DNA of 27,235 nt from a virus, in the IMG/VR virus record IMGVR_UViG_3300003702_000681, positions 1 through 27,235 of that record; one strand, written 5' to 3'. A program made the translations under genes and the position numbers. Shown here piece after piece: positions 1,571-27,235 of this stretch (its first letter is position 1; every line of letters begins with the position of its first letter). The notes beneath the pieces were generated by a model. That model made no database searches. It was not told the DNA's origin and saw only the letters and a list, made by a program, of their open reading frames with translations.

Positions 1571-1571
1571 T

Positions 1572-2788: not shown

Positions 2789-3167
2789 TATTATCACCCC
2801 GTACAATAATATAGTTAGTGTATCCAATCAATTTTAATAAATCATCATCTGCTTCACCCATAACTTTATGTTGTGGTAAAGTATGTCTATGTCCAATTAC
2901 CAAAAGTGGATGTATATCATATGGTATACATAAACTTGTTAATGGATTAATTATATTACCTAGACCAGAATTTTGTAAATAAACACAACTTTTCTTACCA
3001 ACCAACCCAGCACCAACTGCTATCCCAATTGCTTGTCCTTCATTAGTTGCTACAATATGTTTATAATCAGATTTTATTATATCATTAATAAACATTTTCA
3101 ATCCACTATCTGGAACTCCAGTAAAAAAATTATAACCAACATCAATTAAATTTTGAAACTTAACCAT
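2781..3167 (-). CDS. Phosphonopyruvate decarboxylase, N-terminal (ThDP pyrimidine-binding) subunit
   Basis: 128 residues. FFTGVPDSGLK (14-24), ATNEGQAIGIAVGAGL (40-55) and LQNSGLGNIINPLTSL (64-79) are the hallmarks of the N-terminal half of phosphonopyruvate and sulfopyruvate decarboxylases. Glu43 in TNEG is the residue expected to activate ThDP. PQHKVMG (98-104) recalls the DEPQH...G segment of phosphonopyruvate decarboxylases. The bacterial enzyme is normally one chain of roughly 370-400 residues; here the two halves are separate, overlapping genes, as in archaeal ComD/ComE, and total only about 279 residues. The start ATG lies just inside the distance expected after the PEP mutase stop. 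Both halves look intact, so I read this as a true two-subunit enzyme and not as a broken gene. Confidence 0.85.
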   Translation of the reverse strand: MVKFQNLIDVGYNFFTGVPDSGLKMFINDIIKSDYKHIVATNEGQAIGIAVGAGLVGKKSCVYLQNSGLGNIINPLTSLCIPYDIHPLLVIGHRHTLPQHKVMGEADDDLLKLIGYTNYIIVRGDNNV

Positions 3168-4455
3168 TCGGTATCAACTCCAGCACTTCACTGATTGGTA
3201 AACATTTTTCATTTGATTCATACGACCTTTTATTTTTTAAAATTGACTTAGCTGTATTAACCATAGCTGGATAAGAACTTCTTAACAGTTGATTTGCATA
3301 AATAACTACATTTATACCAGCATCTATCAATTCTTTTTCTGTAACTTTATTATAAGTAGATGGTACAACTATCAAAGGAACTCTTTTTTTAAATGTCTTA
3401 TACGCCTTACAAAAAGACATAATTTCATTTGGCTCTTTACTTTTACTATGTATCATAATTCCATCAACTCCACTGTCAATGTAGGAATACGCTCTATCTA
3501 ATGCATCAACTAATCCTTTACACAAAATTAAACTTTCTATTCTGGCAATAATCATAAATTCTTTCGTTACCAAAGATTTTTTACCTTCTGATATTTTGCG
3601 ACTAAATTCCTCTACTCGATCCTGTAATTGATTTGATGTGTCTTCAAATAAAGAATTTCTTTTAATTCCAATTTTGTCTTCTATTATTACCGCTGATACC
3701 CCAATCCTTTCTAAACTTTTAATCATAAATTTAAAATGTTCGACCATACCACCATTATCTAAATCAACAATTATTGGTTTAGTAGTAACATCAAATATTT
3801 CACCCAAAGTTTGATTTACTGTTGTTATATCTACATACTGATTATCTGGCTTTCCTTTTGATGTCGCGTGTGTTAGACTACTTAACCACATACCATCAAA
3901 TTCATCATTACCTACTTTAGTTTTTTCTACTATTAGTCCAGTAAGTCCATTATGTGCTTCTAATATTCTCACAATTGGTTTAGACTCTATTAGACGTTTT
4001 AACATCTTCAGTCTAATGTCCGGAGTTGTTCCAATTTCTTTCAAATGTTCATGTAATTTAGTAGATGAAACACCTTTTGTATAAGGAACATCTATAACTT
4101 TGCCACCCCACTCTTTTAATTTATCAATTACTTTCAATCTAACTTGGCTTTGAACACCACTCTTCCAATCATCTCCATGAACAACATAATCAGGTTTTAG
4201 CTTTTCAATATTAGGAATATAATCCAATGTTATTTGAGGTATAACCTCATTAACTCCCACTATATTTTCCACAACCGTTTTTCTTTCTTCATAACTGAGA
4301 ACAGGTAACCTTTTATAACTCGCTATAGCAGAATCTGTTAATAATCCTACCACTACTTCTCCATACTTTTTAGCTTCTTTTATTATATTTAAGTGTCCAT
4401 GATGTATTAAATCAGCACACATTCCAATATAAACTTTTTTTGATGTATCACTCAA
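3160..4455 (-). CDS. Cytidylyltransferase-phosphoenolpyruvate mutase fusion
   Basis: 431 residues, two domains. Residues 1 to about 140 are a nucleotidyltransferase of the cytidylyltransferase type: DLIHHGH (15-21, HxGH), HGDDW (93-97) and VSSTKL (129-134). Residues about 150-431 are PEP mutase of the isocitrate lyase superfamily: EAHNGLTG (166-173), MWLSSL (189-194), VDLDNGG (230-236) and EDKIGIKRNS (259-268), which fits the PEP mutase signature EDK-x5-NS exactly. PEP mutase makes the C-P bond, turning PEP into phosphonopyruvate; the cytidylyltransferase half probably activates the final phosphonate as a CMP ester for transfer. Such fusions are known in bacterial phosphonate clusters. Start is TTG at 4455, because HxGH leaves little room for a later start; GGAAG lies nine bases upstream. 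The gene overlaps the stop of the upstream phosphatase-like gene by eight bases. Confidence 0.93.
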   Translation of the reverse strand: MSDTSKKVYIGMCADLIHHGHLNIIKEAKKYGEVVVGLLTDSAIASYKRLPVLSYEERKTVVENIVGVNEVIPQITLDYIPNIEKLKPDYVVHGDDWKSGVQSQVRLKVIDKLKEWGGKVIDVPYTKGVSSTKLHEHLKEIGTTPDIRLKMLKRLIESKPIVRILEAHNGLTGLIVEKTKVGNDEFDGMWLSSLTHATSKGKPDNQYVDITTVNQTLGEIFDVTTKPIIVDLDNGGMVEHFKFMIKSLERIGVSAVIIEDKIGIKRNSLFEDTSNQLQDRVEEFSRKISEGKKSLVTKEFMIIARIESLILCKGLVDALDRAYSYIDSGVDGIMIHSKSKEPNEIMSFCKAYKTFKKRVPLIVVPSTYNKVTEKELIDAGINVVIYANQLLRSSYPAMVNTAKSILKNKRSYESNEKCLPISEVLELIPNG

Positions 4456-5608
4456 AATACCACTTCCAAATTCCAGACCTAAGATAATTCAACAATTCTG
4501 TATCTGTTTCGATAGTCTCATAAAATTTATTTTTATTATCATACATAATAGTTCTTGTTTTCTCATTCGAATGGTGACCCTTTGTCGCATCAGGAGAATG
4601 ATGCGCAAATTGAACAAATCTATGATCATCTAAACATCGGATTGCAGAAACTGTTGTTCCATGATTAGGATCAACATCGCCCCTTCCATCTTCAGCAACA
4701 TAAATTCTATTTTTATCAACTTCATCTAAAACATCATTAGATAATCTATCAGTTTTTAACTGACCTAAAATTCCTCTGTTATGTATCCTATTTAAAACCG
4801 TATTTTTAAAATCAACAGCTGCTATCTTATTTTTAGTCACTTTTTTATTAGTAATATTATCAGTAACACTAACCCATGCTAACCATGAGTTGGGAGGAGA
4901 CATTAACGTATCAACGCCTTCAGCATGGCCATGATCAGCAAACAACCAAAATAAAGAATTTTCTTCTTCAAAATTTATATCATCGATGATATCAACAAAA
5001 AGATCTACTACTTCATTACGTTCTAAATTTATACGTTTGCCCTTATAATTAATTGACTTTCCTTTTTCAGCATCATGATAATGATTGTATTTTAAAAATA
5101 TAAAATTATTTTCATCAGCAGGAAGATTTTGCATCACTTTAAGAAAAGTTTCTTCATCGTTTGGGCTATACTTATGAAATTTCATCTGTTTCTTTCTTCC
5201 ACAAATATCATCTGGTACAAGAAAAAAACCATCGGGAAGGTATTGTCCCCCCAAACCTGGTGGATGATAATGCTTCTCCTTAATACACTCATGTAAACCC
5301 AAATCACCCCTAGTTAATGGCATTGCATGAATGTGAATATTCCAGTTGTCAGGCAAACTGTAGAAAACTTGTTCTTTATCCCACGCCAGTTTTTGTGAGC
5401 TAGTTAGCTGATTGAATGTGTGCGAATGTCCTATGCCACCTGGACCAGCTATTCCAGTTGGCGTTAACCCAGAAAACATTGAAACAACCGTTGGAACGGT
5501 AGAACTATTAGTAATATAATCAGAATAATGTAAATTTTTACGTTCAAATAATTTTTCTATTCTTTTGCTCTGTGGAACTGTATCAAATAATATACAATAA
5601 ATTTTCAT
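4448..5608 (-). CDS. Alkaline-phosphatase-superfamily enzyme (sulfatase/phosphotransferase fold), threonine at nucleophile position
   Basis: 386 residues without membrane segments. An N-terminal ILFDTVP places a metal-ligand Asp at residue 9. NSSTVPTVVSMFSGLTPTG (34-52) aligns with the sulfatase nucleophile segment, with Thr40 where sulfatases have Cys or Ser. WLFADHGHAEG lies in the middle of the chain and matches the SDHGE metal motif. Thr is the nucleophile in phosphoethanolamine and phosphoglycerol transferases and in nucleotide pyrophosphatases, so a transferase or phospho-/phosphonoester hydrolase is more likely than a sulfatase. It sits directly upstream of PEP mutase (8-base overlap) and starts at TAATG with the preceding glycosyltransferase, so it joins the glycan and phosphonate blocks. 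A role in putting phosphonate on, or taking it off, the glycan is inference. No signal peptide is visible, so it should act in the cytoplasm. Confidence 0.72.
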   Translation of the reverse strand: MKIYCILFDTVPQSKRIEKLFERKNLHYSDYITNSSTVPTVVSMFSGLTPTGIAGPGGIGHSHTFNQLTSSQKLAWDKEQVFYSLPDNWNIHIHAMPLTRGDLGLHECIKEKHYHPPGLGGQYLPDGFFLVPDDICGRKKQMKFHKYSPNDEETFLKVMQNLPADENNFIFLKYNHYHDAEKGKSINYKGKRINLERNEVVDLFVDIIDDINFEEENSLFWLFADHGHAEGVDTLMSPPNSWLAWVSVTDNITNKKVTKNKIAAVDFKNTVLNRIHNRGILGQLKTDRLSNDVLDEVDKNRIYVAEDGRGDVDPNHGTTVSAIRCLDDHRFVQFAHHSPDATKGHHSNEKTRTIMYDNKNKFYETIETDTELLNYLRSGIWKWYFE

Positions 5609-6369
5609 TATATCCTTCTCTCCAAATAATAATCTTGAACATTATCATGACCAACATGTAAAATTATTTCATTTCCACATCCTATATGACCACTACCGAC
5701 ACCAAACTGTTTTGGAGAAGCATATGGATAAACACCCGTATTCCAAGCAGCTCTACTTAATTGTAGTGGTCCTCTTTTAGGATTTGTTTCCATTAATCTT
5801 TGAAATTCTTTTAGCCACACTCTACCTCTCTCATCATTTGTACGAAGTCCTATCCACCATAAATCATAAGTTAACAAGTTTCCATTAGTTTCATCCTCTC
5901 CAATATGATAATCACCATCGTTTCCACGAGTATAAATACCATCAACTCTTACCATTTGTCTTTCATTTTGTGGACAACAAATTCCAAACTTATCTATTAT
6001 AGGTAATAAAGTTCGTACTTCATCAGATACAAACATTAAATCAGAATCCATCGATATTGCAATATCTGCTTCAGAATTAAGTAATCCCTGAGCTTGGTAG
6101 TAATCACAACAATGATAGCCCCACTTTAATTTTCCACTTCCTTCTCTATAAGATTTATCAAAAGGTGTATCATCAGAATCAACCACTCTAACCTCTATAT
6201 CATATCCATCATCTATAGATGGATCATCACTATAACAAATTATCTTAGCTTCTGGAAAATATTTTTTAACTTGAGAATATGTTGGATCTAATCTTCCTAT
6301 ATCATCAACCCACTTTTGATTTGCTGCTGACCTATCACCAAACTCTGCGAAAATTATTTCTAAACTCAC
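5608..6369 (-). CDS. GT-A-like glycosyltransferase
   Basis: 253 residues. A Rossmann-like start (EIIFAEFG), a mid-chain KLKWGYHCCDYY helix and ISMDSDLMF at 105-113 (DxD at 108-110) fit a nucleotide-sugar-binding GT-A domain. The C-terminal part has paired Trp and Asn motifs (NTGVYPYASPKQFG) and a final HVGHDN. Start is GTG at 6369, supported by AAAGGAGTTATT directly upstream, the same leader seen before the reductase gene. It overlaps its neighbours by a few bases on both sides. I do not recognise a specific family or sugar; the DxD strand and the position between heptosyltransferase-like and phosphatase-like genes are the basis for the call. Confidence 0.6.
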   Translation of the reverse strand: MSLEIIFAEFGDRSAANQKWVDDIGRLDPTYSQVKKYFPEAKIICYSDDPSIDDGYDIEVRVVDSDDTPFDKSYREGSGKLKWGYHCCDYYQAQGLLNSEADIAISMDSDLMFVSDEVRTLLPIIDKFGICCPQNERQMVRVDGIYTRGNDGDYHIGEDETNGNLLTYDLWWIGLRTNDERGRVWLKEFQRLMETNPKRGPLQLSRAAWNTGVYPYASPKQFGVGSGHIGCGNEIILHVGHDNVQDYYLERRI

Positions 6370-9784: not shown

Positions 9785-11202
9785 ATTATACCTTCATAAT
9801 CTTTTAATATTTTATTTTGTGTAGTTGGATAAAAAGTACCTTTTGGATGTCCTATTTTTATAAGAACTTTAAAAATTTTAGCTTCTATATATTCATCAAT
9901 TGCTTTTTTAACTTCAGGAAATAACCCATAATCATCAAAAATAAATATAGCCTCCTTATCAGAACATTCAAATGAATTTTCTATATCACTTTTAACATGA
10001 ATATAGTCATGTACGCAATCTATAAAAACCATATCAACCATTTCAAAATTCCATTGTTGTTGATAAACATCCATAACAACATATTCGACATTATCTCTAT
10101 TAACTAATTGTTTAGATTGTTCATGTCTTTCAGGCAAATTATCAATAGCAATAACCTTACCAAACAAATTACTTAAAACTTTAGTACTGTGGCCGAGAGA
10201 AGAACCAACTTCTAATACCTTCATATTTCTATAAGCCTCTGTATCAAAGAAGTCTATAAAATCAGCTTTAAACTTTAAACTTGTTGTAGTTTTAGATTCT
10301 GTTTTATCTGGCAAACCTTCTAACATTTTTCTCTTTATATCATCAGTAAAATAATTTTCTCCTCTAACAAAGTTATGAGCCATTGGAAATTGTCTTTGTG
10401 TTGTATAAACATCTGAATATCTCGTTATCATTTGAGTTGTTCCACATTGACTGCCAACATTATATTTCGCTTTCGACTTAATATACAATTGAATCCTAAT
10501 TGACATATGTCTCATATCTAAAGCTTTATCAATCCAATTAAATGAAGTTTGTTCTATAGGTTTTTCAATCCAATAAAAATGTTTTAATGTTGGATCAATA
10601 ATATCACATATTATCTTATCCATAGTATAATCATATCTATCTGAAATAAGTAGAGCACCATACTCACCGTCTGTATACCTATTTATAATTCTATCACCTA
10701 ACTCCTTTTCTTCATCACTGAAATATATTTCAGGAGTAGAATCTTTATACTCCCCTTCTTCAAATTGCCAAAACTTTAACATTTGTTCTAAAAGTGGAAC
10801 ATCAGGATTAGATTTATCATAGATTCTATAATGATCATGAAAAACTTCTCCATCAATCTCATCTACGAAATCATTTACATATGGATTATTATCAAAAACA
10901 TTATTTACATTTTGATACGGGTTAGACCAACTAGACCATTGATTAGTATTACCAAATAATTTATTTAACAACTTTGCTGATGGTACATAAACTTCACAGT
11001 TTGGATATTTCTGTTTTAAAAGTCTCGGCATAGCTGACATTATACCCCAATCGCCTATACCATGACAAGTTCTCATAACAGTAAAACCTTGATTATCAAG
11101 ATATTCATCTGGTATTCTAAGACCCTTAGATATATCGAATCCTAAATTTTCAACTTCGCCTGTATTGTAAAGATTATTATCTAAAACCCTTAAAAATAAC
11201 AT
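9769..11202 (-). CDS. Two-domain protein: GT9-like N-terminus fused to a class I methyltransferase
   Basis: About 477 residues from an ATG at 11202. An in-frame GTG sits one codon earlier, but GGAGG is only two bases from it and five from the ATG, so I prefer the ATG. TVMRTCHGIGDWGIMSAMPR, about 45-65 residues in, resembles the opening of GT9 glycosyltransferases, where a Gly-Asp loop precedes a helix; NVGSQCGTTQMITRYSDV near residue 250 would be the equivalent of their nucleotide motif. From about residue 325 a SAM methyltransferase follows: VLEVGSSLGHST, VIAIDNLPERH, VVMDVYQQ and MVFIDCVHDYIHV. The C-terminal domain resembles methyltransferases acting on sugars. I infer that it adds and methylates, or caps, a sugar. 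The first domain is the less certain of the two. Confidence 0.7.
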   Translation of the reverse strand: MLFLRVLDNNLYNTGEVENLGFDISKGLRIPDEYLDNQGFTVMRTCHGIGDWGIMSAMPRLLKQKYPNCEVYVPSAKLLNKLFGNTNQWSSWSNPYQNVNNVFDNNPYVNDFVDEIDGEVFHDHYRIYDKSNPDVPLLEQMLKFWQFEEGEYKDSTPEIYFSDEEKELGDRIINRYTDGEYGALLISDRYDYTMDKIICDIIDPTLKHFYWIEKPIEQTSFNWIDKALDMRHMSIRIQLYIKSKAKYNVGSQCGTTQMITRYSDVYTTQRQFPMAHNFVRGENYFTDDIKRKMLEGLPDKTESKTTTSLKFKADFIDFFDTEAYRNMKVLEVGSSLGHSTKVLSNLFGKVIAIDNLPERHEQSKQLVNRDNVEYVVMDVYQQQWNFEMVDMVFIDCVHDYIHVKSDIENSFECSDKEAIFIFDDYGLFPEVKKAIDEYIEAKIFKVLIKIGHPKGTFYPTTQNKILKDYEGIICQRV

Positions 11203-12759: not shown

Positions 12760-14094
12760 TTAAACCTTCTTTAACTTAGGTAAATTTATTTTTTTAGATT
12801 TATCACTGCCTACTTTTTTAAGTTTTGGTAATTTTAAATTTACTGCTTGTGGCTGCTCTTCAAATTTAGGTAAATAACTATCTAATATTTTTTCAAAAAT
12901 TTGTGTCATTTTATTCATAGAAAAATTTGCTCTGTTAAATATACCTAATTTCTTAGAACCCAAAGAATACTTTCTATATTTTTTATATATATCAACCATT
13001 ACTTGAGAAGCATATTGATAATTTATAGTAAACCAATGTGCTTCATCAACATACATTTCTTCAGGAAAAGATGATTTTGATACTTTTGTCATAGTGCCAG
13101 GCAAAAGAACTGCATTATTTTTATTTAAAAAATCTTTATGTCCACTCCAATCAGAAGCAATAATAGGTTTTTCAGATAAACTAGCCTCCAATAACGGTCT
13201 TCCAAACCCCTCTCCATGAGTAAAAGTAATATGTACTTTCACTTTAGGATGATTATATAACTCATTCATCTCTTCATCTGTCATATCACCATGTAAAAAA
13301 TAAATATTTGGAAGTTTGCCACTAACAGTCGTTTTTATATCTTCTATCTTCTCTTTTATCTCATTCCTATCAATAATAGAAAAAGTAGCACCGCTAGTTT
13401 TCATTAAAAGAGCTACTGAATTTGATTTATTTTTAAATGTTTCCAAAAAAGTTTTTACCAACATACCCGCATCTTTTCTATCATCCCCTAAACCACCTTG
13501 TAGCCAGTGACCAGAATAAAGAAATAAAAATTTTTCTGGTATTTTATCCATCTCATCAACAAATTCTTTAGAAAAGTTTTTTGTCTTCTTATAAATTTCT
13601 GTATCAGCACCTTCAAAAAGAACTTCCATTGGTTTTTGTAATTTTACCTCTCCAACTTTTTGTTCTGTATTTTCATCCATTTTTTCATATGTAACAGATT
13701 CAAATATCTGTTTTACAAATTTAGATGGAACTATATTCATATCCATTCTATTAAGACCTTCAATCCATTCAGGTTTTGGAGCAGTATTTTCAATACCAGC
13801 AGTAATTCCAATATTATACTTAGCCAAAGGAGAAAATTCATTTGGTACACTGATTTGTATATGTACATCGGGTTGTTTTGGAAGATTATTTTCTTTTAAA
13901 ATTCTATCCAAAATTATTTTATCTTTTGGATTTTTTTCATTCAAAGCATTCATTGGAGTATTACCCCATCTTAAAGAATTTATATGAATATCAAATTTAT
14001 CCATATTAACAAGTGCTCTAACTAAATCTCTACTATGAGAACCATATCCACTTCGTGTAGCAACTGGTCCTGTAATTAACATTAACGGTCTCAT
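12760..14094 (-). CDS. GT-B glycosyltransferase, GT4-like, with lysine-rich repeat tail
   Basis: 444 residues. The N-terminus has TGPVATRSGYGSHSRDL (8-24), a GT4-like glycine-rich acceptor loop. FLFLYSGHWLQGG about halfway opens the second Rossmann domain, and HGEGFGRPLLEASLSEKPI in the last third carries the E-x7-E motif that binds the nucleotide-sugar. The last 25 or so residues hold two copies of LPKLKKV, separated by a short Gly/Ser/Lys linker. This basic tail is outside the catalytic fold and could bind membrane, nucleic acid or a partner. The stop is separated by one base from the following zinc-ribbon gene. Sugar and acceptor unknown. Confidence 0.85.
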   Translation of the reverse strand: MRPLMLITGPVATRSGYGSHSRDLVRALVNMDKFDIHINSLRWGNTPMNALNEKNPKDKIILDRILKENNLPKQPDVHIQISVPNEFSPLAKYNIGITAGIENTAPKPEWIEGLNRMDMNIVPSKFVKQIFESVTYEKMDENTEQKVGEVKLQKPMEVLFEGADTEIYKKTKNFSKEFVDEMDKIPEKFLFLYSGHWLQGGLGDDRKDAGMLVKTFLETFKNKSNSVALLMKTSGATFSIIDRNEIKEKIEDIKTTVSGKLPNIYFLHGDMTDEEMNELYNHPKVKVHITFTHGEGFGRPLLEASLSEKPIIASDWSGHKDFLNKNNAVLLPGTMTKVSKSSFPEEMYVDEAHWFTINYQYASQVMVDIYKKYRKYSLGSKKLGIFNRANFSMNKMTQIFEKILDSYLPKFEEQPQAVNLKLPKLKKVGSDKSKKINLPKLKKV

Positions 14095-17552: not shown

Positions 17553-17935
17553 TTACCATTCTTTACAATCGTTGCCATAATTCCATAATTAGATACATCA
17601 AGAAATGCATCTTCTATTGGTTCACCATTTACTGCTGCTTCCTTACCACCCATCAATAAGGTTTTCAATCTTTGAATTTTATCATTCATTCTAAACCATA
17701 ACCCCGTTAGTGATAATTTAACTTCTTCAGGTGTTTGTAATTGTGTACCAACTGAAATATTACCTGGACCATAATCATGTTGTTTATACAAAAATAATTC
17801 ATATTGTTCTCGTTGTAATCTACGAAACTCTGCAGTCATCTGGGGCCAATCTTCTTCCATTTGTTGAGTAATAGATTTTACTTTAGTAGATTCATAATCT
17901 ACTTTTGTTTTTGATTCTTTTATTGCTTTCTTCAT
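17540..17935 (-). CDS. Nucleotide-modification-associated domain protein (DUF1599-like)
   Basis: 131 residues. HDYGPGNIS (53-61) followed by a GLWFRMNDKIQRLKTLL helix and DAFLDVSNYGIMATIV near the end match the pattern of the DUF1599 family (nucleotide modification associated domain 1): a Tyr-Gly loop, an Asp-Lys-x2-Arg-Leu helix and a final Asp-x3-Tyr helix. Members are all-helical, related in outline to MazG/dUTPase-type nucleotide hydrolases, and several sit in phage gene sets for modified DNA bases. It lies directly after a Mom-like gene (ATGA overlap), which fits that context. The N-terminal 30 residues are charged and probably disordered. Actual activity is unknown. Confidence 0.75.
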   Translation of the reverse strand: MKKAIKESKTKVDYESTKVKSITQQMEEDWPQMTAEFRRLQREQYELFLYKQHDYGPGNISVGTQLQTPEEVKLSLTGLWFRMNDKIQRLKTLLMGGKEAAVNGEPIEDAFLDVSNYGIMATIVKNGKWGK

Positions 17936-18555
17936 TTTAGTCTCTTTATTTGTCTTTTAATTTTTTTATTAAGATAGTATACATAAATATATTTAGGTTT
18001 TCTGTTCTTAAAAAATATATTTTTATCCCCAGCATTATATCTTCTTTTTAATTCTCTACCATATGGTCTTTTATCTTGATTTAAAGACCTAGTGTGATAT
18101 TCTTTACCATCCACCATCAACACTCTTGCAGGAGATGTTTCTCCTAAATACTCAAAATTTGTAGCTTTATATATTATTCCTGTATGACCATAATGTTGAT
18201 CAGCAAATGAAACCACAACCTCTACATCAGTATTTTGTTTTAACCACCTCAAAGTTTTTCCAATGAAATAGCTTTCTGTATTCTTTGGCGTATCATCTAT
18301 ACAAACTAATCTCCTTAACTCCGTACACCTATCAGGATTAATTGGATTATATTTTTTAGCAGTATGCGGCATTGATGGCATAGCATATAACATAGCACCT
18401 ATCATTTTGGGTAATCCAAAATTACCCTCTGTATATAAACCGAAATGGTGGTAAGATTGAATGCCATTTATATTGTGTGAATAATGATATTTCTCTATAA
18501 AACTGGTAACTGCTTTCCGGTTTATGTACTCAACTGTGAAGTTGGTTACACTCAT
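17932..18555 (-). CDS. Mom-like DNA-modification protein, copy 2
   Basis: 207 residues. FIEKYHYSHN (19-28), TELRRLVCID (79-88) and VVVSFADQHYGHTGIIYKAT then NFEYLGE (about 113-140) line up with phage Mu Mom, a GNAT-fold enzyme that converts adenine in DNA to N6-carbamoylmethyladenine-type products. The same three blocks occur in the larger Mom-like protein at 20772-21536, but the two are clearly diverged, so they are not a recent duplication. The C-terminus is very basic (KKIKRQIKRLK), in keeping with DNA binding. The gene overlaps its neighbours by four bases each way. Mom-family membership is inferred from motif order; the base and chemistry modified here are unknown. Confidence 0.75.
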   Translation of the reverse strand: MSVTNFTVEYINRKAVTSFIEKYHYSHNINGIQSYHHFGLYTEGNFGLPKMIGAMLYAMPSMPHTAKKYNPINPDRCTELRRLVCIDDTPKNTESYFIGKTLRWLKQNTDVEVVVSFADQHYGHTGIIYKATNFEYLGETSPARVLMVDGKEYHTRSLNQDKRPYGRELKRRYNAGDKNIFFKNRKPKYIYVYYLNKKIKRQIKRLK

Positions 18556-19001
18556 AAGCCAATCTTACGAATCTCCTCAACTGTTCTACCATACTTTATT
18601 AAAATATCAGTAAGTTCAGCTTGACCCCCATGTGATAACTCATACATGTCTACAGCATCTGATGCTTCACGCAAACTAATCTGTAAATGTTTAGCTACTA
18701 TTTCATAAACCCATTTTGGATACTTCATCTCTTTATCTCCTTTAATATATTTTAACCATTGTCTTTTCTTTGGTAAAATATCTGTATAAACTTTATATAA
18801 TTCTTTTGGTTTTAATGGATATTTCTGTACTTCATTTACAAGTTCTATCCACTCCATTTTCATTGAAAGAAAACGATTAACCATATAATTTGACCACGAC
18901 TTTTTATCTTCATCTGAAATATCATCCCAATAATTAGAACGCTGTTGAGATGTTATAGCATTTATATGATCAAATAAATTCTTCCTTTTAATCTTCGCCA
19001 T
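18552..19001 (-). CDS. Probable clamp-loader small subunit, gp62-like
   Basis: 149 residues from an ATG at 19001 (MAKIKRKNLFDHINAIT); the frame is open up to 19040 but the extra 13 residues lie inside the preceding gene. NLFDHINAIT, then SWSNYMVNRFLSM (about 36-48), ELVNEVQ and LPKKRQWLKYIKG follow the order seen in gp62 proteins of marine T4-like phages, where 'NRxLS', a helix with 'N', and a 'P-x-K-R-x-W/F' segment recur. T4 gp62 is 187 residues. It would form the clamp loader with the gp44-like ATPase encoded at 19846-20784 and load the sliding clamp. Position in the replisome operon supports the call. Sequence similarity in this family is low, so the assignment is moderate. Confidence 0.65.
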   Translation of the reverse strand: MAKIKRKNLFDHINAITSQQRSNYWDDISDEDKKSWSNYMVNRFLSMKMEWIELVNEVQKYPLKPKELYKVYTDILPKKRQWLKYIKGDKEMKYPKWVYEIVAKHLQISLREASDAVDMYELSHGGQAELTDILIKYGRTVEEIRKIGL

Positions 19002-19233
19002 CTTGCTTAAACTTATCTGGCACTTTCCCACAATTACCACAACTGTATACCTGAATTGGTATTAGTGCTTCTTGACCCGTAGGTGAAACTATTGGTGAAA
19101 GTCTTTTTATAAAAAATGCTGAGATAAAAACAGAATTGTTACAATCCTCACATTTCATAGTTTCAGCATCTTTCAAATCTACTTGTATTTGAGTTTGTTC
19201 TTTTGGTAACGGTTTTCTTGGTTTCATATTCAT
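18988..19233 (-). CDS. Small zinc-ribbon phage protein, 81 residues
   Basis: Cys28 and Cys31 (MKCEDC) and Cys65 and Cys68 (CGNCG) form a complete zinc ribbon, with a central ISAFFIKRLSPIVSPTGQEA strand region between them. I recall close relatives with 'SPTGQE' between the two knuckles next to clamp-loader genes in marine T4-like phages, with no assigned role. A strong GGAG stands upstream of the ATG at 19233. Its stop overlaps the gp62-like start by 14 bases, so translation is coupled. Possible roles are transcription or replication accessory factor; nothing in the sequence decides. Confidence 0.72.
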   Translation of the reverse strand: MNMKPRKPLPKEQTQIQVDLKDAETMKCEDCNNSVFISAFFIKRLSPIVSPTGQEALIPIQVYSCGNCGKVPDKFKQDGED

Positions 19234-19243
19234 CTTATTACTC

Positions 19244-19849
19244 CTATATAATATCGTCTACTAACCCATACTCTAAACATACTTTCGCATTCCACATCAA
19301 ATCATGTTTCAATATTTCATCTATTTTTTTCATTGGAACTTTTGTGTATTCTTTATATACACTTTTAATTGTTTCCATCATTAGATCAAGATTCTGTTTT
19401 TCATCTTCAAACTCTGAATACTTTCCCCAAAAATTTGAAGATAATTGATGAATTAACATATAAGAATTTCTACTCATATATCTTTTATTACCTACTACTG
19501 AAAGAAATGTTGCCGCACTCGCACAGAATCCATCTACATATGTTTCAACTGGAACTTTACATCTCAATATTGTATCCATAGATGAAATACCTGCGGTGAT
19601 TGATCCACCTCCTGAATTTATCAATACTTTAAGTATGGGTGGGTTTATATCTAAATTATTTCCAAGAGTCAAACTTTTAGATTCTAACTCACCTATCTTT
19701 TTATTCAATTCTGCTGCACTTTCTCTATTTACATTAGCATAATAATAAATTTTATTTTCATGAACTGCTATATGTTTCTCAGTCACCGCATTCTGTGCAT
19801 TTTTCTTTTCAGGGGCTTTCTTTACACCCCAATACTTTTCATCTATCAT
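19244..19849 (-). CDS. ClpP-like serine protease
   Basis: 201 residues, the usual ClpP length. LINSGGGSITAG (76-87) is the oxyanion/substrate strand, DGFCASAATFL (106-116) carries the nucleophile Ser111, MLIHQLSS (131-138) the catalytic His134, and HDLMWNAKVCLEYGLVDDII (182-201) the Asp183 and the closing 'EYGLVD' typical of ClpP. The catalytic triad is therefore complete. No partner ATPase is visible here. Phage ClpP-like proteins can be head-maturation proteases or act with host ClpX/A; placement between the two clamp-loader genes, away from any head genes, favours neither. It overlaps the clamp-loader ATPase stop by four bases (ATGA) and precedes the zinc-ribbon gene by ten. Confidence 0.88.
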   Translation of the reverse strand: MIDEKYWGVKKAPEKKNAQNAVTEKHIAVHENKIYYYANVNRESAAELNKKIGELESKSLTLGNNLDINPPILKVLINSGGGSITAGISSMDTILRCKVPVETYVDGFCASAATFLSVVGNKRYMSRNSYMLIHQLSSNFWGKYSEFEDEKQNLDLMMETIKSVYKEYTKVPMKKIDEILKHDLMWNAKVCLEYGLVDDII

Positions 19850-20784
19850 TTTATGACTCCTAATAATTCTATTAACATAGCCATAGAATTAATCTCTTTA
19901 TCAACCACCTGAGCATCTGACAATTGATACTTAGCTATAGTTAAAATACTTTCTGCTACATGTCCTTTACCATAACTATCAACTTCATCATAGAGTAAAC
20001 GAAACAAATCAGCAAAGTCTGATATCTTATTATCAGCTAACATCTTTCTAATAGTAACAAAAGCATCTTTTTTACTTTGTGTCTTTAACACATTTACTAA
20101 CTGAGAACAAAACACATTTATATTTAAATCAATAGCAACCAAATTATCTTGTTCAATCGATAACTTACCATCAACTACCTGCCGTTGAGCAAAATTAATA
20201 ATCCTACGAATATCAGGATACCCACCATTAACTAACGTAGCTACATCATCAATCTGAAAATCTACTCCCTCTTCATGCAGTATGTCATATAAATGTGATG
20301 CGACTTCCTTTCTTGATGGTGGAACTATTTGAAATGGTTGACAACGACTTTGTATTGGATCAACAATTCTCTCTACATAGTTACAAGTCAATATAAACCT
20401 AGTGTGTTTAGAAAAAGTCTCCATAAGGTTGCGTAAAGCGGCTTGTGCGTTAGGTGTAATGTAATCGCACTCATCCAATATGATAACCTTCATATCTTTA
20501 AATCCAATAGTGGAAGCAAAACTGCGAACCTTATTACGAACTGTATCTACGCTATTCTCATCAGAAGCATTAATATACAGATGATCACATTCTATATTAT
20601 TAACCAATAACTTTGCAAGAGTGGTCTTACCCGTACCAGCCCTTCCATAAAAAAGAAGATGTGGTAAGTCTCCACTCTCAAGGTATCTAGATACTTTACT
20701 TTTTAGATGCTCATTTCCAATATAAGTATCTAACGTCATAGGGCGGTACTTTTCAACCCATAAAGTGTGTTCTAATTTTTCCAT
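19846..20784 (-). CDS. Clamp-loader AAA+ ATPase, gp44/RFC small-subunit-like
   Basis: 312 residues (T4 gp44 is 319). LWVEKYRPMTLDTYIGNE (8-25) is the RFC box at the N-terminus; GRAGTGKTT (47-55) is Walker A; VIILDECDYIT near residue 100 is Walker B; LTCNYVERI is sensor 1 and IQSRCQPF the SRC arginine-finger motif. GGYPDIRRIINFAQ near 190 is sensor 2. The C-terminal collar domain follows. It uses ATP to open the sliding clamp and place it on primed DNA, normally as a tetramer with one small subunit. The start lies 13 bases inside the end of the Mom-like gene 1. Confidence 0.94.
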   Translation of the reverse strand: MEKLEHTLWVEKYRPMTLDTYIGNEHLKSKVSRYLESGDLPHLLFYGRAGTGKTTLAKLLVNNIECDHLYINASDENSVDTVRNKVRSFASTIGFKDMKVIILDECDYITPNAQAALRNLMETFSKHTRFILTCNYVERIVDPIQSRCQPFQIVPPSRKEVASHLYDILHEEGVDFQIDDVATLVNGGYPDIRRIINFAQRQVVDGKLSIEQDNLVAIDLNINVFCSQLVNVLKTQSKKDAFVTIRKMLADNKISDFADLFRLLYDEVDSYGKGHVAESILTIAKYQLSDAQVVDKEINSMAMLIELLGVIK

Positions 20785-21536
20785 TTATCGTTATCTACCT
20801 CTATTTTTCTAATTTCAATATCATGTTTATAGTTTTTAGGATACTTCATTTCAGGATGTTTCATAACACTGCGAAATTTCCTAATCTCTTTTTTATTACC
20901 CAAAAAGTAGATGTATCTATGTTTGCTAGCTTCTTTCTTTAACCAAAATGTATGACCAATCTGTTTCGGCAACTTTTTAGGGTCAGCTGAACCAAATTTA
21001 GAATATACACTTCTACTGTGCATCCATTCCCCATTCTCTGACAATCTCAAAGAATAAGTAGGCGCCAATTGAAAATCTCCACATCCTTGATATATCCAAT
21101 TTGTTGCTTGATAAATAGCTCCATCATGATTTTGTTCAGGATCAGCATACGATACCAAAACCTTTATTTTTGGAGCGTTTTCCTTTAACCATTTAAACGA
21201 TAATGATATTGCCAATGATTCTATATTTTTTCCATAACCATCATATATAAACAATCTAGTTAACTCTAAAAGGTTCTTAGTTTTTAAAATATCTTCTGAA
21301 AAAATAGAACCTAAAACTCTTCTCCCGACAGGAAATCCATAACAAGCAACACCTATCAACTTCTCTTCAGGTTCCACAAAGAATTTATGCTCATCATCAG
21401 TTTGATAAAAAATTCCAAGCGGATACCTACAAGAAGATAATCTACCACTATAATGATTCTTTTCTATTATTTCCCTAGCCAATGGTTTATAGATTGGTCT
21501 AATAGAAACTCTAGACTTATCTACATACGATTCCAT
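20772..21536 (-). CDS. Mom-like DNA-modification protein, copy 1
   Basis: 254 residues. IIEKNHYSGR (23-32), LLELTRLFIYD (near 90-100), VLVSYADPEQNHDGAIYQAT followed by NWIYQG (about 125-152), and a late HRYIYFLG strand match the motif order of phage Mu Mom and related GNAT-fold DNA modification enzymes. The VSYAD-x4-HDGAIYQATN block is the best preserved and is shared with the copy at 17932-18555. Mom proteins alter adenine N6 and so block restriction enzymes. The gene sits between the clamp and clamp-loader genes, with its ATG directly behind the clamp stop (TAGATG), so it is made early together with the replisome. Exact modification unknown. Confidence 0.78.
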   Translation of the reverse strand: MESYVDKSRVSIRPIYKPLAREIIEKNHYSGRLSSCRYPLGIFYQTDDEHKFFVEPEEKLIGVACYGFPVGRRVLGSIFSEDILKTKNLLELTRLFIYDGYGKNIESLAISLSFKWLKENAPKIKVLVSYADPEQNHDGAIYQATNWIYQGCGDFQLAPTYSLRLSENGEWMHSRSVYSKFGSADPKKLPKQIGHTFWLKKEASKHRYIYFLGNKKEIRKFRSVMKHPEMKYPKNYKHDIEIRKIEVDNDKWKN

Positions 21537-22253
21537 CTATACATCTTGTTCAGCAACAAGATAGTAAGTAGCATCATACTCATCAATCTTAAAATTGATA
21601 CGGGCCAAACCTTGTGAACTTACTTCCAATGTAGCACTTTCACATTCTTTATTAGCTACCAACACATCTCTAAATAAATTAGCATTAAAAGATATATTAT
21701 CAACAACTTCATAGGATTCTGTTTTGACTGGCAAAGTAACACGATTAGTGTTAATTTCAGCATACCCAATCACAACCTTTACACCATCATCATTTGTCAA
21801 TACTGTAAAGTTATCTGTATCAGCCAAAGCACCTTTACCAGCAACAAATTTAGTCATAAAAGACTTATCAACTTTTATCTTAATCTCAAAATCAGGTACA
21901 GATTTTAAATTAGGTGGTGTACCGATAACAGACAAATCTGACAACATATAATTTACATTAGAAGTACTATCAGATATCTTTAAAGATACTACCTTATCTC
22001 CTACTTTTGTCAAATTCATAATAATATCATCAGACATAACAGAAAGCAATTTTACTAATTGTTCTGTATTATATACGCCCAACACAGCATCTTCAAATTT
22101 CCAATTCTTCATTGTCAATTCACCAAGAAGATTTTTATCACCTGTAATAAAGCGTGTGGAAAGCATATCCCCATCACTTTTAATTACAACCGAAGGACAA
22201 TTTCCTCCAAGATAATATTTATCAATGAACCTATTTAATGAATGTTTATTCAT
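21537..22253 (-). CDS. DNA polymerase sliding clamp, gp45-like
   Basis: 238 residues against 228 in T4. The start MNKHSLNRFIDKYYL, the alternating strand pattern, the LSDLSVIGTPPNLKSVPDFE linker (about 104-123) between the two similar halves and the end ATYYLVAEQDV agree with trimeric T4-type clamps. Clamps lack catalytic residues, so recognition rests on this layout and on position directly after the polymerase and before the loader ATPase. AAGGAG nine bases upstream supports the ATG at 22253; an ATG in between is closed by a stop after three codons. A hairpin in the 59-base gap upstream may influence expression. Confidence 0.85.
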   Translation of the reverse strand: MNKHSLNRFIDKYYLGGNCPSVVIKSDGDMLSTRFITGDKNLLGELTMKNWKFEDAVLGVYNTEQLVKLLSVMSDDIIMNLTKVGDKVVSLKISDSTSNVNYMLSDLSVIGTPPNLKSVPDFEIKIKVDKSFMTKFVAGKGALADTDNFTVLTNDDGVKVVIGYAEINTNRVTLPVKTESYEVVDNISFNANLFRDVLVANKECESATLEVSSQGLARINFKIDEYDATYYLVAEQDV

Positions 22254-22312: not shown

Positions 22313-24799
22313 TCAAAAAAATCTTTCTATGGATGTATTTTTATTTACTGGCTCATCCCATTTCAATGTTTCATAAAACATCATGATTTTTTTCTTAAGC
22401 ATTTGAGCATACATCTTTTTATAATCTATATACTTCTTAATAAATTCTATTATTTGAGGTGGATCTTCATATCCCTTATAACCACAAGACTCTAAACCCA
22501 ACTCATTTTGTCTTAAATAAACCCACTTAATTTTTTCCGATGAAGTAATCTGTTCATACTTTCTACTTAAACCGAAGTAATCAATCAAATCGTTGTATGT
22601 TATAGAAGCTTTAACATGTGCTGGTGAACCTTTTGCAAAATTAGTAAACTTACCCACCTTCCCATTAGAATACTTCTTCAAATTTTTCACACCTGTCGGT
22701 ATAGCAATTCTATCAAAATCCACCAGCTTCATGGACTCTTTAAAATTTATAATTCTTTCATCTATCTTATCCTTTGGTACAGTAGCTAGTATATCTTCTA
22801 ATACACTTTTTAATAATTCACCCATAGCTTTAGGAAAATTACTACGAACCAAGTCCAGACCCTTAACATGCAATTTATTTACCTTAACCCCATTGTCATT
22901 TATAATCTTCAAACCATACCGTTTCTTCACAATGAATAAACCAGACTTAGCTATCAACTCCTGCTTTATCTCAAACCTATGTTTATCTAAATTTAAGAAC
23001 TTCTTAGCAAAGTAATCATAAGACTTATTTAGAAACACCTGCATCTCATCAGCTACATCTAATATTACTTTACTCATCATTGTCTCAGTAAATGTTGTAT
23101 TTGGAAATCGTTTTTCAATTAATGGAAGAGCTGAATAAAAAACCGAATCTGTATCTATGTAAATACAATAATCTTTATCATCACCAAGCTGTTTATTATA
23201 AAAATAATTTCCCATTTTCTTAGTAAACTTAATCAATTCTTGACCTGTAAGTGTGGTAGCCTCAGCATTATCCAAATCATAAAACCTAAATACTGGCAAA
23301 CCCAATACACCATAGAGAGAATTTAGAATAACTTTCTGTGTCAGCTGCCTGCTCTTAAAATATATATACTTATCATTATCTCCAGCATCACCAAACTTCT
23401 TCATCAGTTTCCTATACTCTACACGAGTATCAAACCATTTTGCCAATAAAGCTGGAATTAAACCTTGTTTATCACTACGATAGAGAACTCCATTAGAAGA
23501 TACCGAAACCTCATTCTTATCAAAGAAGTCCTTTAATTCTGTTTCTGTGAGTTTCCCTTTTTCTTTTCCGTTGGATTCAAGAGTATAAGTTTTTGACGTG
23601 CCCCTTAAAAACTCCTCAGCATTCCAACCAACAAGTTTTCCAATTTTTGTTTCGGGTGATATATTCAATGACATAATAACAGATGGATACATAGAAGTAA
23701 TATCTAGATCAAATACCCAATCGTGCTTCCCTCTTTGTGGTGTTTGTACATAAGCACCAGTAAATTTACTTTCTTTTTTAAATCTTGGTGGTTTATTCGG
23801 CGCTATCACTCCCAAATTCTTTAAATATACTAATATAGCACCTTCCAAATATCGAGACGAAAAATAAATATCCTCATAAGGTACATGTCCTACGTGACAC
23901 ACACCACGGGCCATATCAATAAAATCTAATTTATCATGCATCTTCTTTACAAGTCTAACGTCATGGATATTATATTCTACAAATTTATTTATATCATTCT
24001 CATATAAATCATTAAGTGTTCCGCTATACTTAACCTTATTTTCTCCTAACTCATGTTCAGCAACAGCATCCAATCGATAAGAAGATAACTGCGTATAAGT
24101 GAATAATTTATATAATGAAAAGTAATCCAAACAACTAACCCCACCAAACATATATCTCTTACGGTGTTTATTCCATTGAACTTCTTGAATTGGTGATAAC
24201 ATATCAGCAATATTACTACCAAGAACCTTACAAGCTCTATTATATAAATACGGCATGTCAAATACATCTATATTCCAACCTGTAATTATTGTAGGTTTAA
24301 ACTCTAAATACTTTACAAGGAATCTCTGTAATAATGAATACTCATCTTCAAAACTCTCTATAATACAATTACCTTTTGATTGTAATGTCAACTTCTTTTT
24401 CTCATCCAATACAAACGCATAATAAATATCATCATCAGAATTATAAACAGCAATAGATGTTATACGATTATCAGCTTCAGTAGGATTTGGAAATCCTTTG
24501 GTAACTTCTACCTCAATATCAATTATCATTATTTTATGGTTAGCTGATAGTTCTTCTGAATCCGCATATTGGTCTACCAACATACGAGTTTCAGGTGAAA
24601 CATCTGATTCAAAGAGATTAGGCGTATCTATATCAAACTTAAATACTTTTTTAAGTTTGTCACCATACAAAGATACATAAGTGCCAGCTCTACTTTTTAC
24701 ATAAGCATAACGTTTATATGGAATACAATAATAACCCTTTTTATCATCCCATATATGAACTCTATTTTTACGACTCTCATAATAAATATTTTGATACAA
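22313..24799 (-). CDS. Family B DNA polymerase, T4 gp43-like
   Basis: 828 residues (T4 gp43 is 898). Proofreading domain: Exo I MIIDIEVEV with Asp94 and Glu96, Exo II GWNIDVFDMPYLY, Exo III YNIHDVRLV. Polymerase domain: motif A DLDITSMYPSVI, motif B KVILNSLYGVLG and motif C YIDTDSVF, all with intact catalytic residues. The extreme C-terminus SIERFF looks like a clamp-binding peptide, as at the end of gp43. It replicates the phage genome together with the clamp and loader encoded just downstream. Start is TTG at 24799, preceded by AAGAGG at good spacing; there is no ATG that would keep the N-terminal strands. The gene follows the terminator of the receptor gene and so needs its own promoter in the 75-base gap, which I cannot identify. 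Confidence 0.97.
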   Translation of the reverse strand: MYQNIYYESRKNRVHIWDDKKGYYCIPYKRYAYVKSRAGTYVSLYGDKLKKVFKFDIDTPNLFESDVSPETRMLVDQYADSEELSANHKIMIIDIEVEVTKGFPNPTEADNRITSIAVYNSDDDIYYAFVLDEKKKLTLQSKGNCIIESFEDEYSLLQRFLVKYLEFKPTIITGWNIDVFDMPYLYNRACKVLGSNIADMLSPIQEVQWNKHRKRYMFGGVSCLDYFSLYKLFTYTQLSSYRLDAVAEHELGENKVKYSGTLNDLYENDINKFVEYNIHDVRLVKKMHDKLDFIDMARGVCHVGHVPYEDIYFSSRYLEGAILVYLKNLGVIAPNKPPRFKKESKFTGAYVQTPQRGKHDWVFDLDITSMYPSVIMSLNISPETKIGKLVGWNAEEFLRGTSKTYTLESNGKEKGKLTETELKDFFDKNEVSVSSNGVLYRSDKQGLIPALLAKWFDTRVEYRKLMKKFGDAGDNDKYIYFKSRQLTQKVILNSLYGVLGLPVFRFYDLDNAEATTLTGQELIKFTKKMGNYFYNKQLGDDKDYCIYIDTDSVFYSALPLIEKRFPNTTFTETMMSKVILDVADEMQVFLNKSYDYFAKKFLNLDKHRFEIKQELIAKSGLFIVKKRYGLKIINDNGVKVNKLHVKGLDLVRSNFPKAMGELLKSVLEDILATVPKDKIDERIINFKESMKLVDFDRIAIPTGVKNLKKYSNGKVGKFTNFAKGSPAHVKASITYNDLIDYFGLSRKYEQITSSEKIKWVYLRQNELGLESCGYKGYEDPPQIIEFIKKYIDYKKMYAQMLKKKIMMFYETLKWDEPVNKNTSIERFF

Positions 24800-24831
24800 A
24801 ATAACCTCTTTACTATAAATATCTCTATTTT

Positions 24832-24863
24832 TTAGAAAAGTGGGGGATATATTTCAATCCCCC
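24832..24863 (-). terminator. Rho-independent terminator after the TonB-dependent receptor gene
   Basis: On the minus strand the receptor TAA is followed after eleven bases by GGGGGAT, an eight-base loop and ATCCCCC, a perfect seven-pair stem that is strongly GC-rich in an AT-rich setting. ACTTTTCT follows, giving a modest U tract. It lies between the receptor and the DNA polymerase gene, so the two would be separate transcription units. In the plus direction the arm is followed by no T run, which gives it a minus-strand orientation. Confidence 0.75.
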
Positions 24864-24874
24864 GAACTTAACTT

Positions 24875-27235
24875 TTAGAAACTAACTGCAATACCAACAT
24901 TGAAATATCTTGGTGTTCCAAGAAATACTTCTGCGTTGTTAGCTGCGTGAACTTTATCCCCGTAACTGTTGTATTGACTGTGATCTACTGCATCTTGAAC
25001 ATATGTTGCGTCTGTCGCATTAAACACATGAGCGAATGCGGTTAAATCATACCCACCAATAGAAGGTAAAGCATATGAAGCATGGAGATCCACTTTGGAA
25101 TATCCAGGTGCTTGCCATACTTGTTCTCTGTCTGCATCTGCGTCTGAACCATCGTACTCTCTTGCGCCAGGACTCCAATCAGAATAATTATCATCATACT
25201 GATTGTATACTGCCTGTAATTTAAGACCACTTATCGGAGTAAGTGTACCAACAAGAGCGAATGAAGTTTGAGGCATATCACCGACAAACAAACCATCAAG
25301 TGCGTAAGAATACGGAGTGGTCGTTTGTCCAATGACTTGACCATCTTCGTTAAACTCATCTTCTTGATAATTTCCATCTGCATCACCATTAAACTTCCAA
25401 CTTCCAAGACTTACTATAGCATCTAACCTAAGTAAATCAAGTACTTGTGTGGAAGCTTCAACTTCAACACCTTGGTGTTTCTGATTTATCCCCGAAAGGA
25501 AAATAACATCAGTATCACCACTTGAACCTTGTCCGCTTGTTACAGATTTGGTAAGGTTTCTATCTTGCCAATCTGTACTATAAGCACTAACTTTAACTGC
25601 TACTTTATCTACACTAAAATTAACACCAGCTTCTGAACTGATGAATCTTTCGTTTGCAGGATCTGAAGCAACTGTACCATCAAAGTAAATCACATTATCC
25701 ATAATAGGTGGCTTTTCAACAATCCCGAAGTTACCGAAAACACTAATGTTATCAGCAACATCATACATTGCTCCACCTTTCCATTGTAAAGTAGAAATAG
25801 GATCAGCTGTGATCTTTTCATCTGCTACAGTAAAATGGTCTTGGTATGAATATGCAATTTTAGATAATCCTACCATTCCATAAGCAGAAAGTGGACCTGA
25901 AGCATAAGCTCCTTGAACAAATCCGCCTAACCAATCAACGGTAGTTTCATTGTGATAAGCGATTATATCACCTAACTCAACTCTTTTACCATCGGCTGCG
26001 TTATCATCAGCATAATCCATATAGTAATCACCGCCCATTAGATCACGGACTTCACGTGCATGTTCTATACCAGCAGTTCTCCAATCTAAACCAACTTGTA
26101 ATTTAAGTTCATCACTCAAATCATAATTCAATTTAGAAATAAAACCAAGTGTATTCTGACGATTAATACTATTCCTCAAAATACCAACTGATTGGTTATT
26201 TCCATCACCATGTGTTCTTGTGATAACTCTTTTGTCTACATAGACTGTATCATCATCACCCGAATTCATAGCTATAAGAGCATTCCAATCACGAGTCCAG
26301 GGACTACGACCATAATAAAATTTATAGTCATCATCACCTAAGTTACCATCAGCATCCATTGTAGGGATTCTACCATAAGTACCTGTACCACCACCTGAAC
26401 CACCACTCCAATACAATACTGAACTCAGTCTCATATCATCGCTAATGGTTAAGAAATGGTTAAGGTTTACCAATGGTTTATGAAAGAAGTTTTCTCTTTC
26501 ATTAAGGTAATTAGGATCGTGTCTAGCAACCGTTTTTGCACCATACATATACCAGTATTGTTTACCTGTATATGATGGATCAACTGGTGACCAGTTTTGG
26601 TTGAACTTATGTCCTACATCTACAAACTGACCATCTTCACCAAGTGCTTCAGTATCATACCCATCTACACTCTCAGCAAATTCGGCATCGTATGCACCGA
26701 TATTCTGTTTGTATAAATTCTGACCATGACGCTGTGGAGCACCAATTGCGTATAATTCAAATCGGTTATCCTTATTCAGTGCGTAACTTGCACCAAAGTA
26801 ATATGCCCATGCATCCGTCCATGTTTTGTCAATGACACCATCACCTGTTTTTCTTACAATAGTACCACTCAAGGCAAATTTATCACCTATCATACCACTA
26901 TTGTAGTTTACAGTGGATTTTATGAATCCACCTGCCCCAACTTCTTGTTTAATCTTACCGCCTTTTTCATGACGAGTAGGATCAGTTATGATGTTCATAG
27001 TTCCACCAATGGAAGGAGTAGCTAAGTTAACAGCACTTAAACCGCGCTGCATCTGAATGGAATGTGCAGCGTCTGCTACACCATCCCAGTTAGACCAATA
27101 GACCCAACCGTTTTCCATATCGTTTTGTGGGACTCCGTTAATCATAACGGCTACATTTCGTTGGTTAAACCCACGAACATTGATACGAGCATCACCCGCA
27201 CCACCACCTTGTTGCGTTGCATACACACTTGGTGT
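24875..27235 (-). CDS. TonB-dependent outer-membrane receptor (N-terminus cut by window edge)
   Basis: The frame is open to the right edge (codons for Thr-Pro-Ser precede the first in-frame GTG), so about 786 C-terminal residues are present and the signal peptide and TonB box are missing. The visible start is mid-plug: TPSVYATQQGG, GDARINVRGFNQRNVAVMIN, GVPQNDMENGWVYWSNWDG and IGGTMNIITD are plug-domain motifs of TonB-dependent receptors. The remainder is a long series of alternating strands and charged loops, as in the 22-strand barrel, and the last residues YFNVGIAVSF end in Phe, the outer-membrane insertion signal. It would import a scarce nutrient, such as a metal chelate or glycan, using TonB energy. 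G+C is clearly higher than in the phage genes. Substrate unknown. Confidence 0.9.
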   Translation of the reverse strand, partial: TPSVYATQQGGGAGDARINVRGFNQRNVAVMINGVPQNDMENGWVYWSNWDGVADAAHSIQMQRGLSAVNLATPSIGGTMNIITDPTRHEKGGKIKQEVGAGGFIKSTVNYNSGMIGDKFALSGTIVRKTGDGVIDKTWTDAWAYYFGASYALNKDNRFELYAIGAPQRHGQNLYKQNIGAYDAEFAESVDGYDTEALGEDGQFVDVGHKFNQNWSPVDPSYTGKQYWYMYGAKTVARHDPNYLNERENFFHKPLVNLNHFLTISDDMRLSSVLYWSGGSGGGTGTYGRIPTMDADGNLGDDDYKFYYGRSPWTRDWNALIAMNSGDDDTVYVDKRVITRTHGDGNNQSVGILRNSINRQNTLGFISKLNYDLSDELKLQVGLDWRTAGIEHAREVRDLMGGDYYMDYADDNAADGKRVELGDIIAYHNETTVDWLGGFVQGAYASGPLSAYGMVGLSKIAYSYQDHFTVADEKITADPISTLQWKGGAMYDVADNISVFGNFGIVEKPPIMDNVIYFDGTVASDPANERFISSEAGVNFSVDKVAVKVSAYSTDWQDRNLTKSVTSGQGSSGDTDVIFLSGINQKHQGVEVEASTQVLDLLRLDAIVSLGSWKFNGDADGNYQEDEFNEDGQVIGQTTTPYSYALDGLFVGDMPQTSFALVGTLTPISGLKLQAVYNQYDDNYSDWSPGAREYDGSDADADREQVWQAPGYSKVDLHASYALPSIGGYDLTAFAHVFNATDATYVQDAVDHSQYNSYGDKVHAANNAEVFLGTPRYFNVGIAVSF

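Follow-up and report, generated by a model that had tools for sequence, protein, structure and literature searches.

Marine phages that we assign to a T4-like lineage carry a gene for a TonB-dependent receptor (TBDR), which usually lies in their replication module. Our tentative reading, to which we give slightly less than an even chance, is that this TBDR is an old, Marinimicrobia-derived transporter of nucleotide-type nutrients feeding phage dNTP synthesis, kept as a pseudoknot-TBDR-terminator cassette. According to this proposal, the phage lineage would have acquired the gene long ago, most simply once, from a Marinimicrobia (SAR406) host, and would have retained it with its leader and terminator, usually between the genes for the ribonucleotide reductase NrdJ and the DNA polymerase. 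In an infected cell, the TBDR would be exported to the outer membrane and, powered by the TonB-ExbBD system of the host, would take up nucleotides, nucleosides or pieces of nucleic acid. Host phosphatases and kinases would then turn these into precursors of the dNTPs from which phage DNA is made.

The TBDR gene adjoins a T4-like DNA polymerase gene

The window, that is the whole stretch of DNA analysed, is a 27,235-b IMG/VR virus record (IMGVR_UViG_3300003702_000681). A frame still open at the window end (24875 to 27235, minus strand) encodes the C-terminal 786 aa of a TBDR and corresponds to residues 145-930 of a homologue of about 930 residues in full (L001). The Plug domain (PF07715) was detected in this truncated piece with a Pfam E-value of 4.7e-8 (33.9 bits vs a gathering threshold of 23.9), and full-length homologues reached 49-56 bits. 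As the sequence-only reading had it, the gene is next to a phage polymerase: 75 bp separate it from a T4-like family B DNA polymerase gene downstream (22313 to 24799, minus strand; PF00136, E 2.7e-37; phrog_262, E 7e-186; also supported by synteny). The same strand carries genes for a sliding clamp, or DNA polymerase processivity factor (21537 to 22253; phrog_223, E 2.3e-11), and for the large (19846 to 20784; phrog_168, E 1.8e-81) and small (18552 to 19040; phrog_225, E 1.2e-14) subunits of the clamp loader. Downstream of the TBDR gene, a terminator-like hairpin, GGGGGAT...ATCCCCC, is followed by the T-rich tail ACTTTTCT (24842 to 24863, minus strand). Its stem shows a compensatory change in two relatives (L006 and L082), which bears out the earlier suggestion that the gene ends with its own terminator; 59 of 98 relatives passed a strict hairpin plus T-tract rule.

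Scanning IMG/VR with the TBDR yielded at least 318 stretches encoding relatives, and one intact copy per record was present in 26 of 29 viral records. At 119 viral loci, the gene has this T4-like polymerase gene downstream of it, and it is lacking from 18 related polymerase loci with more than 3.5 kb of upstream DNA; some of the contigs counted overlap or are near-identical, so that loci do not equal independent species. Directly upstream of the TBDR gene, 88 of 101 testable loci encode NrdJ, whose gene ends 55-117 bp before it and whose product scored above the NCBIfam cut-off for adenosylcobalamin-dependent ribonucleoside-triphosphate reductase (RTPR) in 5/5 cases tested. NrdJ is also found upstream of the polymerase at all 18 TBDR-less loci, indicating that the reductase is independent of the TBDR; the NrdJ-polymerase arrangement at these loci is an empty site. 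The same cassette was found at other positions in five loci (L002, L004, L010, L011 and L025). No Gp23 capsid gene was seen within the 27-kb window itself, and four TBDR-containing records encode one (G002, G062, G011 and G017). Judged from the replication genes of the window and Gp23 in the records of its relatives, the phage lineage is T4-like.

The phage TBDR has a conserved plug, putative TonB-box region and loops

The full gene of the relatives encodes a signal peptide, a CarboxypepD-like domain, a plug and a barrel, for a total of about 905-945 aa. By inspection, the signal peptide and a C-terminal aromatic residue are present in the 98 full-length proteins, and F930 is invariant in a 40-sequence phage alignment. 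An AlphaFold2 model of L001 built from 82 phage and bacterial alignment rows reached a pLDDT of 85.3 and a pTM of 0.81; an earlier model with 40 phage rows alone had a pLDDT of 55, the bacterial rows having raised the quality. The model confidently predicts a TBDT fold with a barrel enclosing the plug. Foldseek matched it to Fiu (E 3.7e-38), and a VIA comparison gave Z scores of 38.1 to Fiu and 37.2 to BtuB, the latter with an rmsd of 2.7 over 535 residues. These fold searches did not discriminate the ligand, as BtuB was tied with siderophore receptors.

TBDRs are classic phage receptors, and FhuA-pb5 structures were also found among the fold matches of the model. The phage could flood the cell surface with its own receptor allele, which would hide or displace the host receptor that competing phages use, or would soak up their tail proteins. 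The swapping of TBDR alleles between phages (see below) would suit such superinfection exclusion, as would a secreted TonB domain in some records that could compete for TonB boxes. However, a decoy does not need an intact, energised plug, and the putative TonB-box region (residues 104-118) is highly conserved (0.88 in phage vs 0.84 in host copies), as is the plug (0.93 vs 0.91). The barrel loops of the phage TBDRs are nearly as conserved as the strands, so the signature of an arms race is absent, and a median dN/dS of about 0.12 indicates strong purifying selection. Since the plug, the loops and the putative TonB-box region show the same degree of conservation in phage and host copies, transport fits better than a decoy, which we consider unlikely, also in view of the location of the gene inside the replication module.

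The secreted TonB domain is a stand-alone TonB C-terminal-domain protein with a signal peptide, encoded by 5 of 46 records in three distinct versions (for instance L525:926-1252 and L526:1112-1489). This small protein is a possible competitor of the host TonB and shows that some TBDR-containing phages touch the TonB system in a second way. Being found in no more than these five records, it was rejected as a general phage TonB partner for the TBDR.

Chromosomal homologues lie near nucleotide-processing genes

We looked at the genes surrounding the chromosomal homologues of the phage TBDR. The commonest family, with 13 of 128 immediate neighbours, was the nucleotide pyrophosphatase/phosphodiesterase PF01663, whose genes lie on the same strand and downstream of the TBDR gene in several phyla, at about one high-scoring full-length copy per genome. 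Deoxynucleoside kinase (dNK) genes were found near four Marinimicrobia homologues (L167, L175, L183 and L226) and near L203, e(P4)-like acid phosphatase genes near L201, L203 and L237, and S1/P1 nuclease genes near L161 and L177. At L203, the dNK, acid phosphatase and TBDR genes all point in one direction, and L201 has the acid phosphatase, TBDR and pyrophosphatase genes together. In total, nucleotide-processing genes gave 26 matches in 658 kb of flanking DNA vs none in 715 kb of same-genome control DNA (p 5e-9), a p-value that is post hoc because the query families were picked from those flanks after the neighbours had been seen. The neighbours concern mostly distant homologues (45-50% identity), and about 25 of 80 loci, a minority, have them. 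We discarded the DeoC-family neighbours of L191 and L195, which on visual inspection resemble class I aldolases. In the phages themselves, we found no pyrophosphatase and no convincing dNK. From the chromosomal neighbours and the reductase/polymerase locus of the phages, we infer that the ligand is of the nucleotide type.

A general nutrient transporter with no link to nucleotides, carrying an iron chelate, a saccharide or some other organic compound, would agree with a fold from which the ligand of a TBDR is not readable and whose best matches include siderophore receptors; moreover, increased carbohydrate uptake was the role proposed for the SusC-like TBDR of the marine megaphage Mar_Mega_1 (PMC9723777). 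Yet the phage TBDRs scored 51-65 bits with the SusC/RagA model TIGR04056, vs a curated cut-off of 368, and in the families most often found next to the chromosomal homologues it is nucleotide-processing genes that recur, not SusD or iron genes. Such a general role appears unlikely.

A vitamin B12 receptor feeding the adenosylcobalamin-dependent reductase encoded next door is less probable again. The direct adjacency in 88 of the 101 loci and the closeness of the fold to BtuB (Z 37), tied as it is with siderophore receptors, speak for it, but the same reductase is kept in all 18 TBDR-less relatives and no cobalamin riboswitch was found near the chromosomal homologues. Of 16 Marinimicrobia genomes with homologues, 13 have their single cobalamin riboswitch at a different TBDR-like gene, less than 26% identical to the homologues and in the N-terminal part alone. 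This divergent riboswitch-adjacent gene (L264-L276) is a candidate B12 receptor of Marinimicrobia.

The TBDR gene is an old acquisition, probably from Marinimicrobia

The sequence-only reading had seen foreign DNA in the high G+C content of the TBDR gene. The contrast with the polymerase gene exists (39.3% vs 31.1%), but the 22-27% attributed to phage genes was too low, 28-34% being measured. At synonymous sites, the two genes match, with a third-position G+C of 0.239 vs 0.242 and a four-fold-site G+C of 0.150 vs 0.160. The excess thus falls on codon positions 1 and 2 and stems from amino-acid make-up, not from foreign DNA. Since the synonymous sites are fully phage-like and the phage copies constitute one old group of about 60-91% identity, the gene is not recent. 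An auxiliary uptake gene is hence the best supported of the three readings offered at first, without the recent acquisition attached to it. The other two, a false assembly join and a prophage/host boundary at about 24800-24870, have the raised total G+C and nothing else in their favor and are practically out of the question, given the phage-like synonymous composition, the same gene order at 119 viral loci, the junction found again in other contigs (L006 and L082, with a 77-bp gap) and the relatives, where phage genes flank the junction left and right, NrdJ and other phage replication genes being on the far side.

The proposed use of the receptor phylogeny to name the host pointed to a probable one. 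The phage TBDRs form a single group with strong support, nested within the chromosomal TBDRs of Marinimicrobia (Neomarinimicrobiota/Fidelibacterota), where the best cellular identity is 76-77%; homologues in other phyla are 45-50% identical. Going by this gene phylogeny, the host of these phages is most likely Marinimicrobia (SAR406). Searching 245 genomes of the phylum for the phage polymerase returned two distant matches (36% and 33% identity), hence no direct host link. The homology between the phage TBDRs and the Marinimicrobia/FCB chromosomal family is full-length, with up to 77% identity in Marinimicrobia. In contrast to the phage copies, which adjoin phage replication genes and have a pseudoknot leader, the chromosomal ones adjoin SRAP, dNK or pyrophosphatase genes and have no such leader.

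One TBDR from a Marinimicrobia MAG (L170:986-3733) nests inside the phage group, and because of it strict monophyly of the phage TBDRs was rejected (AU test, p-AU 1e-6). This sequence, located on a 4.3-kb MAG contig, is likely to represent a return of the gene from phage to host. On it, the start of a second receptor lies in tandem behind the TBDR gene. Between phages, TBDR and polymerase distances were correlated with an r of 0.46 and clear swaps were seen: L018 and L100 differ by 4% in the polymerase and by 29% in the TBDR. Phages exchange TBDR sequence separately from the polymerase, which is also compatible with host-range-linked selection.

A pseudoknot precedes the phage TBDR genes

The window ends inside the TBDR gene, before the leader region, and the leader is known from its relatives. 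All 98 complete phage TBDR leaders contain, between NrdJ and the TBDR gene, an H-type pseudoknot of consensus ACAGG-CAGNN-GACRCA-CCUGU-NNAAAAA-UGYGUC, located shortly before the Shine-Dalgarno sequence and the start codon. In 60 distinct sequences, 97.3% of the pair cells are standard pairs and 6 of 11 pairs show changes on both sides; 48 double-change cells were counted vs 10.3 after shuffling, and 0 of 500 shuffles reached as high a number. Pairing in shifted registers fails. Exact-pattern scans of IMG/VR found the pseudoknot in at least 188 stretches, and 263 of its 272 exact occurrences precede a TBDR gene, the other nine running off the contig while showing a TBDR start. It was absent before other phage genes in 34 loci scanned, from host TBDR leaders and, with up to 3 mismatches allowed, from 20 Marinimicrobia genomes.

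No credible Rfam match to the leader was found for L001 and seven other loci. The PreQ1-I riboswitch (RF00522) and other small H-type pseudoknots share the fold of about 34 nt, the A-rich linker and the position in the 5' leader; RF00522 reached at best 13 bits in L001, vs a gathering threshold of 39, and did not match the seven other loci. The conserved bases of PreQ1-I are presumably different from those of the phage pseudoknot. In the translational operator of the T4 gene 32 mRNA, a pseudoknot and then an unstructured A-rich stretch precede the Shine-Dalgarno sequence. The TBDR leader resembles it, being a pseudoknot with an A-rich stretch before the Shine-Dalgarno sequence in a T4-like phage, but differs in that, across the 34 loci, the TBDR gene is the one phage gene with this structure in front of it. 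Most likely, the pseudoknot would tune TBDR expression as a ligand- or protein-responsive element. A stronger version, in which phage-run nucleotide scavenging at the outer membrane would be gated by a new, phage-only class of pseudoknot sensing the imported metabolite, the infected cell thus bringing in DNA building blocks under phage control, is doubtful.

Other genes in these phages

The replication module of the window also holds two Mom-like DNA-modification genes (20772 to 21536 and 17932 to 18555, minus strand; PF25680, E 1e-43 and 3e-45). At the other end of the window (3 to 6369, minus strand), phosphonate biosynthesis genes lie beside many glycosyltransferase-like genes: a PEP mutase fused to a cytidylyltransferase (3160 to 4455), a phosphonopyruvate-decarboxylase-like TPP enzyme split over two frames (2781 to 3167 and 2333 to 2827), an iron-type alcohol dehydrogenase (1572 to 2336) and a carbamoyltransferase (3 to 902), all on the minus strand. 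Among the relatives, L010 encodes a tmRNA (68 bits) and a tRNA (12969-13388 and 10567-10640), and L018, from a TBDR-containing T4-like phage, has a manA RNA motif (63 bits; 808-1010). By eye, NrdJ of L042 (2024-9503) contains intein or homing-endonuclease-like insertions, and QueD/QueE/QueC/FolE-like and IMP-dehydrogenase-like genes occur in the flanks of L009 and L010 and of L004 and L011.

Relation to known systems and significance

Phage-encoded TBDRs are a known kind, since a putative SusC-like TBDR was reported in the marine megaphage Mar_Mega_1 and in LR745206 and, like the present one, is phage-encoded and was proposed as an auxiliary metabolic gene (PMC9723777). At the level of description, at which the two can be compared, Mar_Mega_1 is a megaphage with a SusC-type receptor, whereas the present phages are T4-like with contigs of about 130 kb; the part of that report considered here describes neither a replication-module locus nor a leader RNA (PMC9723777). 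Prevotella Lak megaphages likewise encode a TBDR-type plug region, with 24-25% identity over about 170 residues. The literature searched, mostly without subscription papers and preprints, held no description of TBDRs in Marinimicrobia or in T4-like phages. Within it, the T4-like TBDR lineage, its locus in the replication module, its Marinimicrobia origin, the pseudoknot and the link to nucleotides appear undescribed.

For a TBDR family that is conserved in several FCB phyla, the analysis proposes a class of candidate ligands. It also probably links T4-like phages to a host phylum not yet in culture, and it yields a new covarying RNA that, at about 34 nt, can be synthesised and assayed directly with ligands. 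It is established that phages enhance metabolism within the cell, and a conserved phage importer of the outer membrane encoded in the replication module would extend this control to nutrient uptake. If our reading is true, infected Marinimicrobia, which are abundant in the dark, low-oxygen ocean, would take up nutrients on phage command.
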